Below, piece after piece: positions 10,115-47,101 of a DNA stretch of 64,000 nt. The notes under the pieces were generated by a model. That model ran no database searches, was not told where the DNA came from, and worked only from the letters and a program-made list of their open reading frames with translations. Every line of letters begins with the position of its first letter. Position 1 is the stretch's first letter. The translations under genes were made by a program, and so were the position numbers. Origin of the DNA: Natronococcus sp. AD-5 (lineage in GTDB: Archaea > Halobacteriota > Halobacteria > Halobacteriales > Natrialbaceae); NCBI RefSeq assembly GCF_030734285.1, contig NZ_CP132294.1, positions 1 to 64,000 on the forward strand. Direction: 5' to 3'.

Positions 10115-10297
10115 CGACCGTGTGTTGGCGAGGACGCCGGTAAACGTTCCGTTCTCCCGTGATTACGGACCGCGGCAAGACCGCGAGCACACCGACGATA
10201 TCGTTCGCTCGAGTTCCGCGTCAGCGCCTGCACCCGTCGGCGGATGCGAGACGGTGAAGGCGTGATTACGTCCGTCGTACGGGTTCCCACCGCGATT

Positions 10298-42706: not shown

Positions 42707-43273
42707 CTACTCCGACTGGACGTCGCGGCGCATCGCGATCTCGAACCACGGACACAGTCGAAGCTGTCGGTACCACTCGGGGTTCGAGTGCAGCCGCTCG
42801 TAAGGCACCCACATCAGGCCGGCGACCTCTTCCTCGTCGGGATCCAGGGTGCGGTCCGACAGCGTCAGCTTCAGGACGGCACAGACCTCGTGCTCGACGC
42901 CCGCGTTCTCGAAGTAGCGCTTGTACTCGAAGCGGTCGGTCAGCCGCAGGTCGTCGTACTGGTCGGGCGTGACCCCGAGTTCCTCCTCGAGTCGCCGCCG
43001 GGTGGCCTCCTCCTGGCTCTGTCCCTGGACGGGATGGGAGGCGACGGTGCCGTCCCAGTAGGTGCCCCAGAGGCGCTTGCCCGGCGCCCGCTGGGCCAGC
43101 AGCACGTTGTCGTCCTGGTCGAAGACGAGCGAGGTGAACGCCCGGTGGCGGATCCCGTCGCCGGTGTGGGCCTCGAGTCGGTTGACGAGTTCGAGTGCGG
43201 TGTCGCCCTCGTCGACGGCGATCACGTCCTGCTTCGCGTTTTCGTGCGGGTGGTCGTCCTGTGGCGTACTCAT
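42707..43273 (-). CDS. idi: isopentenyl-diphosphate isomerase-like Nudix protein
   Basis: This 188-residue protein matches type-I Idi, which interconverts IPP and DMAPP for archaeal lipids. The Nudix-like helix reads QEEATRRRLEEELGV, and the catalytic Glu region is GVEHEVCAVLKL. The motif that normally carries catalytic Cys (SVCGHP in Escherichia coli) reads DGTVASHP here, so Cys is replaced by Ala. It could be inactive as an isomerase or use a different mechanism; other haloarchaea also carry a second, type-II enzyme. The gene is transcribed alone. Confidence 0.85.
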   Translation of the reverse strand: MSTPQDDHPHENAKQDVIAVDEGDTALELVNRLEAHTGDGIRHRAFTSLVFDQDDNVLLAQRAPGKRLWGTYWDGTVASHPVQGQSQEEATRRRLEEELGVTPDQYDDLRLTDRFEYKRYFENAGVEHEVCAVLKLTLSDRTLDPDEEEVAGLMWVPYERLHSNPEWYRQLRLCPWFEIAMRRDVQSE

Positions 43274-45172: not shown

Positions 45173-45394
45173 CTACTGCTGCGCGGATCGCCGGCCGAGG
45201 AGGTAGCCGGCCGCGAAGCTAACGCCGAGCAAAACCGCGGCGACCGGGGAGCGTCGCGACTCCGTCACCGGCGTCCCTTTCGCTCTTTCGACGCCCTCGA
45301 GTATCGGTTCGCGGAACGGGGTGTCCATTCCGACTGCAACCGCCTCTCTGACGGCGACCTCCGCCAGGGCCCGTTTGTCGATTTGTGCGGCCAT
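45173..45394 (-). CDS. small protein with C-terminal membrane helix
   Basis: This 73-residue protein has a helical N-terminal part (RALAEVAVREAVAVGMD) and one C-terminal span (AAVLLGVSFAAGYLLGRR) ending RRSAQQ. Tail-anchored layout suggests the N-terminus faces the cytoplasm. I do not recognise a family. An ATG at 45394 (MAAQIDKRAL) is preferred to the one 15 bp upstream. Confidence 0.78.
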   Translation of the reverse strand: MAAQIDKRALAEVAVREAVAVGMDTPFREPILEGVERAKGTPVTESRRSPVAAVLLGVSFAAGYLLGRRSAQQ

Positions 45395-45508: not shown

Positions 45509-45922
45509 TTACCCGAGCTGTTCGTCGAGTATCAGGCGCGTTTTCGTGCTCACGACCTCATCCTGGTCTCGAGCCTGCGTGATGAGATCGTTCACGCCGC
45601 GGGTGTCGGCGGCGTCGACGACGAGCACGACGTCCTGTTCGCCCGAGACCATCCAGACGAAATCGACCTCCTCCCACTCGGCCATCCGCTCCGAGACGGC
45701 CTTGGTGTCGACGTCGACCGCTACGCTGACTTCGATCATCGCCTTCACGTTTCCCGTGCGAGTCGAGATCGTGAACCGCTCGATCACGTCGTCGCCCATC
45801 ATCCGCTCGACGCGGTTCCGGACGGTCCCCTCGCTCGTTCCGACTTCGTCGGCGATCTCCGTGTACGGCGTTCGGGCGTCGCGCCGGAGCATATCGAGGA
45901 TCCGTCGATCCAGGTCGTCCAT
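45509..45922 (-). CDS. Lrp/AsnC-family transcriptional regulator
   Basis: This 137-residue regulator has an N-terminal helix-turn-helix (DDLDRRILDMLRRDARTPYTE, GTSEGTVRNRVERM) and a C-terminal ligand-binding RAM domain (FTISTRTGNVKAMIEVSVAV, EEVDFVWMVSGEQDVVLVV). Lrp-type proteins respond to amino acids. The gene is divergent from carA, with a 102-bp spacer containing two matched TACG-N5-CGTA palindromes, so it probably controls carA and itself. Confidence 0.94.
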   Translation of the reverse strand: MDDLDRRILDMLRRDARTPYTEIADEVGTSEGTVRNRVERMMGDDVIERFTISTRTGNVKAMIEVSVAVDVDTKAVSERMAEWEEVDFVWMVSGEQDVVLVVDAADTRGVNDLITQARDQDEVVSTKTRLILDEQLG

Positions 45923-45958
45923 AGAGATGCGTGACTACGGCCGACCCGCACTTACCGA

Positions 45959-45973
45959 TTACGAATTTCGTAA
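45959..45973. promoter_or_regulatory. upstream Lrp-type operator
   Basis: TTACGAATTTCGTAA is a perfect palindrome (arms TTACGAA/TTCGTAA). It contains the core TACG-N5-CGTA, which is repeated at 46012-46024. The site lies between lrp and carA, 36 bp from the lrp start codon (45922). Confidence 0.6.
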
Positions 45974-46010
45974 CTCAGCTTCGAAGGCAACACTTATCAC
46001 CGGCTATCCA

Positions 46011-46026
46011 ATACGTAGTTCGTAAT
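46011..46026. promoter_or_regulatory. start-proximal Lrp-type operator
   Basis: ATACGTAGTTCGTAAT contains the same TACG-N5-CGTA core as the site at 45959-45973 and touches the carA ATG at 46025. The core centres are 52 bp apart, about five helical turns. A TTATC box near 45994 could be the carA TATA element, between the two sites. Occupancy would block initiation. Confidence 0.55.
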
Positions 46027-47101
46027 GACAGCTGCCTACGTTGCGCTGGAGGGCGGCCACGTGATCGAGGGACGTGGTTGCGCTCCGGGGACAGCTCGTG
46101 GCGAACTCGTTTTCACGACAGCCTACACCGGCTACGAGGAGAGCCTGACCGACCCGTCCTACGAGGAACAGGTCCTGACCTTCTCGTACCCGCTGATCGG
46201 GAACTACGGCGTCCGCGAGGAGCGATTCGAGGACGACCGCGTCCACCCGCGCGCCGTGCTCGCTCGAGAACTCACCGACGACGTCGCGGCGTGGCTCGAG
46301 AGCGAGGGCGTCCCCGCCATCGACCACCTCGACACCCGCGAGGTCGTCACCGACATCCGAGACGGCGGGGCGATGAAGTGCGGGATCGCCGTCGGCGAGG
46401 GCGTCACCGAGGAGGACGCGCTGGCCGAACTCGAGGCCTGCAAGGGAATGAGCGAACACACCGAAATCGGCGCCCAGGTCAGCGTCGACGACCCCGTCGT
46501 CCGCGGCGCCGACAACGACGGCGCGACGGTCGCGCTGATCGACTGCGGCGCGAAGGGCTCGATCGTCGACTCGCTGCTCGCCCGCGACGCGACGGTTCAC
46601 GTCCTGCCGCACGACGCGAGCGCCGAGGACGTCGAGGCGGTCGATCCCGACGTCCTGTTCATCTCGAACGGCCCCGGCGACCCGGCCAACTACGAGCAGG
46701 CGGTCGCGCTCGTCGAGGAATTCGTCGACGACACGCCCGTCGCCGGCATCTGTCTCGGTCAGCAGATCGTCGCCCGCGCGCTCGGCGGCACCACCGAGAA
46801 GATGGCGTTCGGCCACCGCGGCGTCAACCAGCCGGTGCTCGACCTCGAGTCCGGCCGGGTCGTCATGACGACCCAGAACCACGGTTACACGGTCGGCGAA
46901 CCCGGCGAGCACCTCGAGGTCTCCCAGATCAACGTCAACGACGACACGCCGGAGGGCCTCGACGGGACCGAGTACGACGTTATCACCCGACAGTACCACC
47001 CCGAAGCCAACCCCGGTCCGGAGGACACCCTCGACTTCTTCGACGACGTCCTCGCAATGGCCGGCGACCGAAGTCAGCGAGCCGTTCCCGCCGACGACTG
47101 A
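46025..47101 (+). CDS. carA: carbamoyl-phosphate synthase small subunit
   Basis: This 358-residue glutaminase subunit supplies ammonia to CarB for carbamoyl phosphate (arginine and pyrimidine synthesis). The N-terminal domain begins AAYVALEGGHVIEGRGCAPG. The class-I glutaminase has the nucleophile Cys in AGICLGQQIVARALGG and His-Glu in YHPEANPGPED. carB is not the next gene. The ATG directly follows an operator-like palindrome, which supports leaderless translation and repression by the divergent Lrp regulator. Confidence 0.95.
   Translation: MTAAYVALEGGHVIEGRGCAPGTARGELVFTTAYTGYEESLTDPSYEEQVLTFSYPLIGNYGVREERFEDDRVHPRAVLARELTDDVAAWLESEGVPAIDHLDTREVVTDIRDGGAMKCGIAVGEGVTEEDALAELEACKGMSEHTEIGAQVSVDDPVVRGADNDGATVALIDCGAKGSIVDSLLARDATVHVLPHDASAEDVEAVDPDVLFISNGPGDPANYEQAVALVEEFVDDTPVAGICLGQQIVARALGGTTEKMAFGHRGVNQPVLDLESGRVVMTTQNHGYTVGEPGEHLEVSQINVNDDTPEGLDGTEYDVITRQYHPEANPGPEDTLDFFDDVLAMAGDRSQRAVPADD

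Follow-up and report, generated by a model that had tools for sequence, protein, structure and literature searches.

A probable operator array of an Lrp-family regulator at lrp, carA and carB in Halobacteria

Archaeal Lrp operators and the lrp-carA locus

Dimers of archaeal Lrp-family regulators recognize imperfect, AT-centred palindromes of 13-17 bp that lie two or three helical turns apart, and they can wrap around 100 bp of DNA; activators within the family sit at a constrained position, only a few bp ahead of the BRE (PMC2995911). In Halobacterium salinarum, one member of the family, Trh3 (VNG1816G; PMC4236453), is encoded divergently from carA. Ashworth et al. 2014 describe this trh3-carA pair, with two conserved signals in its shared promoter in 18 haloarchaeal species and another at carB; by ChIP, Trh3 was bound at the trh3, carA and carB promoters, and trh3 expression showed a weak positive correlation with that of carA and carB (PMC4177876). 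Elsewhere it was reported that deletion of trh3 caused no growth defect in the test used, that the H. salinarum family members have common targets, and that Arg, Gln and Lys are predicted effectors of Trh3 (PMC4236453). The core of our finding was therefore known, as the signals and the ChIP data had been given in the 2014 paper. What is added here is a third element, a rigid geometry, and evolutionary tests (separation and loss) that tie the sites to the regulator and to three genes.

The locus was analyzed in a stretch of 64,000 nucleotides of Natronococcus sp. AD-5 (the window). The lrp gene (45509-45922, minus strand) specifies an Lrp/AsnC (feast/famine) regulator of 137 amino acids with an AsnC-type HTH and a RAM ligand-binding domain (PF13404 and PF01037, both above the curated Pfam cut-offs). 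The carA gene (46025-47101, plus strand) specifies the small subunit of glutamine-hydrolysing carbamoyl-phosphate synthase (358 amino acids; 353.6 bits against TIGR01368, cut-off 307.35). The two genes diverge from a shared spacer of 102 bp (45923-46024). On basis of synteny and of a single close orthologue per genome, lrp is taken as the probable orthologue of trh3. The best NCBIfam model for the protein was LysM (NF040947), and membership was rejected because the score of 108.3 bits stays below the cut-off of 180. The genome contains 16 further Lrp-like matches. Beside lrp lies an ORF of 73 residues (MAAQIDKRALAEV...GYLLGRRSAQQ; window 45176-45394, minus strand) with a hydrophobic stretch near the C terminus.

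For haloarchaea, CGAAA has been proposed as BRE and TTWT as TATA box, and 72% of the protein-coding transcripts of H. volcanii are leaderless (PMC4983044). A putative carA TATA box of the TTWT type, CTTATC, is found in a conserved column at 45993-45998 (plus strand), and a putative lrp core promoter (the GGTAAGT region; 45946-45957, minus strand) is suggested by its conservation and by its position between the first palindrome and the lrp start. A scan for bacterial-type promoters and terminators, whose coverage does not extend to archaeal promoters, gave no match.

Geometry and conservation of the sites

The starting point was a sequence-only reading of the locus, which had claimed two matched Lrp-type operators with TACG-N5-CGTA cores, 52 bp apart, one abutting the carA ATG and the other upstream of a putative TATA box. 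These positions were recovered exactly. Site A (TTACGAATTTCGTAA, 45959-45973, no strand assigned) is a 15-bp palindrome with an AT-rich centre, at the promoter where the H. salinarum orthologue was located by ChIP; its core TACGAATTTCGTA (45960-45972, centre 45966) precedes the TATA-like CTTATC. Site C (ATACGTAGTTCGTAA, 46011-46025, no strand assigned) overlaps the carA start codon and the probable transcription start, and the last base of its core TACGTAGTTCGTA (46012-46024, centre 46018) directly precedes the ATG. The core occurs 42 times in the 5.17-Mb genome versus 14 times for the reversed pattern, and around 0.03 pairs within some 100 bp are expected, so that the pair represents more than chance. 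Another core, with a GC-rich centre (TACGTCCGTCGTA, window 10267-10279), probably does arise by chance.

Two operators was nevertheless an undercount, as there are three elements. Site B (TTCGAAGGCAACA, 45980-45992, plus strand) contains the half-site TTCGAA (45980-45985), starts 20 bp past site A, is conserved about as well as that site and overlaps the likely carA BRE. The consensus of this third element across the class is T[TA]CGAA, again beginning 20 bp past site A. To compare the spacer, 80 loci were fetched by protein similarity; lrp and carA were divergent with site A between them in all 80. A stricter pattern, TTACGANNNTCGTAA, was present in 58 of the 61 genomes of the family, nearly always once, and its reversed control gave one match in total. 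The sites are conserved across the class, in line with the conservation in relatives on which the initial reading had staked its claim. The qualification 'matched' stood for this locus and for the family, as site C has the full TACG-N5-CGTA in 52/52 Natrialbaceae loci, but it did not extend to the class as a whole, where the full core is found in 95/118 Halobacteria loci; the right half CGTA is preserved in 117 of these, and the left half is weakly conserved.

The spacing of the elements varies less than the distance of site A from the start of lrp. From A to B, 113 of 118 carA promoters have an offset of 20 bp and three have one of 19 bp; from A to C, the offset is 52 bp in 92 promoters and 51 bp in another 24. 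The apparent spacing of 59 bp in the remaining two was rejected on inspection, since the script had mis-scored site A; with the true sites (TGCGAAATTCGCA in L251 and TACGAAATTCGCA in L256) both promoters fit. At a helical repeat of 10.5 bp per turn, the steps of 20 and 31/32 bp correspond to around two turns from A to B and three from B to C, five in total. The elements are therefore multiple sites two or three helical turns apart, as in the Ss-LrpB-type operator, and the same-face geometry proposed in the initial reading is real and, given the fixed offsets and the detached arrays treated below, appears to be under selection.

The composite of A and B (TACG-N5-CGTA-N7-T[TA]CGAA) was found in 201 of 242 Halobacteria genomes, and its reversed control in none. 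Within Natronococcus sp. AD-5 there are only two copies, one at carA (45960) and an inverted one at carB (C1:2720380-2720405; carB ATG at 2720455). In genomes with several matches the fetched loci were lrp, carA or carB, and one-off matches with unlike centres (e.g. in G251, G126 and G133) look like chance. In most of the inspected genomes without an exact match, site A was present but one of its arms was altered by a substitution, for instance to TTCG or TGCG. More generally, carB promoters contain two TNCG-N5-CGNA palindromes 20 bp apart, which start 47 and 27 bp upstream of the TATA box. The suggested link to the supply of arginine and pyrimidine precursors holds, and carB bears the same element.

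Downstream of the carB TATA box, TTATTACGATGTNCGAACT is strikingly conserved in haloarchaea (L117 around 1440-1455, upstream of the start; L142-L170, L299-L308) and parts of it persist even in genomes without the regulator; its role may be that of initiator context or of a third site. A broad Lrp regulon was considered and set aside: one-mismatch matches to TTACGNNNNNCGTAA numbered 61 in the Natronococcus sp. AD-5 genome versus 38 for the reversed control, and in addition to carB 19 of these matches were fetched, so there may be a wider set of weak sites.

Possible action at the two promoters

Taken together, A, B and C probably constitute the operator array of an Lrp-family regulator that is autoregulated and dedicated to carbamoyl-phosphate synthase. 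The regulator would control its own gene and carA via the three sites and carB, elsewhere on the genome, via a two-site version. Dimers at A and B would sit two turns apart, and a dimer at C would follow on the same side of the helix after three more turns, so that mutual contacts and a bending or wrapping of the spacer are conceivable; by analogy with known systems, such wrapping may be cooperative. The octamer with wrapping or looping that the initial reading invoked goes beyond the sequence evidence. Site A adjoins the putative lrp core promoter; at carA, B would cover the BRE and C the start. Given these positions, both promoters should be shut off at full occupancy once an amino-acid effector (arginine, lysine or glutamine, according to the predictions in the literature) indicates sufficiency. 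Occupied by itself, site A may instead help carA from its place directly ahead of the BRE. We favour a repressor or dual switch: because B coincides with the likely BRE and C with the probable transcription start, repression at full occupancy is the sign towards which we lean.

The alternative that fares best, although we consider it unlikely, is that the regulator is mainly an activator, in which a dimer at A recruits TBP/TFB to carA and lrp and C only limits expression when the protein is abundant. Such recruitment has been proposed for Ptr2, LysM and Ss-LrpB, with activators placed as described above (PMC2995911), and the arrangement here is compatible: at carA, site A lies 7 bp ahead of B and the BRE, and at carB the nearer site is found a few bp ahead of TTTCG, at a constant distance from the TATA box. 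The weak positive correlation between trh3 expression and that of carA and carB (PMC4177876) has been counted in favour of activation as well; it is compatible with it but is also expected from shared repression, and leaves the sign undecided. Against activation, B on the BRE and C on the carA start are blocking positions, and genomes that lack the regulator retain the carA and carB core promoters, so that an activator is not indispensable. The preferred reading thus remains that of a repressor or dual switch.

Genomes in which lrp and carA are separated or lrp is lost

Since B and C coincide with core-promoter positions of carA, part of their conservation there could reflect promoter constraint. 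One may even suppose that only A is an operator and that B and C are the BRE and start-codon context of carA; the sequence CGAA does occur in B close to where the BRE is expected, and C, with its weakly conserved left half, runs up to the ATG. We regard this as improbable in view of nine genomes in which lrp and carA are apart, either on different contigs or with around 0.2-3 kb of additional DNA in between (L238 and L078 are one genome and were counted once). Where both genes were seen, each had an array of its own. All nine detached lrp promoters retained A, B at +20 and C, which was always at +51, with neither a TATA box nor carA near. Information content was 1.87 (A), 1.81 (B) and 1.86 (C) bits per base, versus 0.83 between B and C and 0.76 past C. 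Hence, B and C are not merely the BRE and start context of carA, and the detached arrays argue against promoter constraint as the whole cause of their conservation. At carB, moreover, the partner position at a distance of 20 bp holds a full palindrome, which lies 47 bp from the TATA box.

The nine cases are not nine independent tests, as eight are found in close relatives; the ninth (G232, from another genus), in which a penicillin amidase family gene (PF01804; L247 1461-3944, minus strand) lies between lrp and carA, is probably an independent event. An RNA hairpin or a covariation of A and C was considered and rejected: the centres are reverse-complementary in L078, L081 and L084, and this relation is broken in the six other detached loci.

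A close orthologue of the regulator is present in 389 of 391 genomes of the class. In the two that lack it, G033 and G251, A and B are gone at both carA and carB, and the core promoters with their TATA regions remain; in regulator-bearing relatives (G182 and G287; G113) the sites are present. An isopentenyl-diphosphate-isomerase-like gene adjoins carA in both regulator-less genomes (L285, L287). As a gene of this type lies near lrp in the window (42707-43273, minus strand), this suggests that the stretch between it and carA was deleted. A further genome, G025, had neither a match to the regulator nor carB sites, with the reservation that it is incomplete (78%). The regulator also occurs in lineages f9 and f11, where it is unlinked to carA and where carA and carB are without an array; the lrp promoter of genome G034 retains TTACGAACTTCGTAA, with TACGAA around 21 bp further.

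That the palindromes serve another regulator, be it a second Lrp paralogue or an arginine/pyrimidine regulator, could be argued from the 16 further Lrp-like matches and from the common targets within the H. salinarum family (PMC4236453), but is very improbable, as the sites vanish at carA and carB where the lrp orthologue is missing even though G033 has other Lrp-like genes, remain with lrp when it is parted from carA, and correspond to promoters (trh3, carA, carB) bound by Trh3 in the ChIP data of the 2014 paper (PMC4177876). Considering the sites, their spacing, their conservation and their loss with the regulator, together with ChIP in H. salinarum, the sites almost certainly belong to the adjacent Lrp-family protein, as the initial reading had proposed.

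Comparison with known systems

The array illustrates, in compact form and across the class, how carA and carB, which are unlinked, may be coordinated in archaea by a single local regulator, and the separations and losses turn the 2014 prediction into a precise geometry, with sites at 0, 20 and 51-52 bp. A more far-reaching proposal, on which we are close to evenly divided and lean slightly against, is that a single wrapped complex of three dimers acts as an effector- or dose-dependent switch of the two divergent promoters, with a geometry selected independently of the carA promoter and a regulator dedicated to lrp, carA and carB that replaces the operon-based control of bacteria. If true, the three-gene regulon would be a clean system for the study of DNA bending and wrapping by Lrp at archaeal promoters.

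The Trh3 circuit of H. salinarum shares the divergent pair, the two conserved promoter signals and carB as a target (PMC4177876). It concerns another species and is based on ChIP, whereas the present evidence comes from sequence; the parts of its description used here do not include the third element, the fixed geometry of 20 plus 31/32 bp, the detached arrays or the genomes that have lost the regulator. Ss-LrpB of Sulfolobus solfataricus likewise acts at three palindromes of the 15-bp class on one face of its own control region, where cooperative dimers wrap around 100 bp in a dose-dependent switch (PMC2995911); wrapping at the present locus is a presumption. By the tests made here Ss-LrpB is not an orthologue of lrp, and its targets are porDAB and permeases, with no divergent carA (PMC2995911). 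LysM of Sulfolobus (NF040947) is, like lrp, a member of the Lrp family, and regulates amino-acid biosynthesis, but its known target is the lysW operon.
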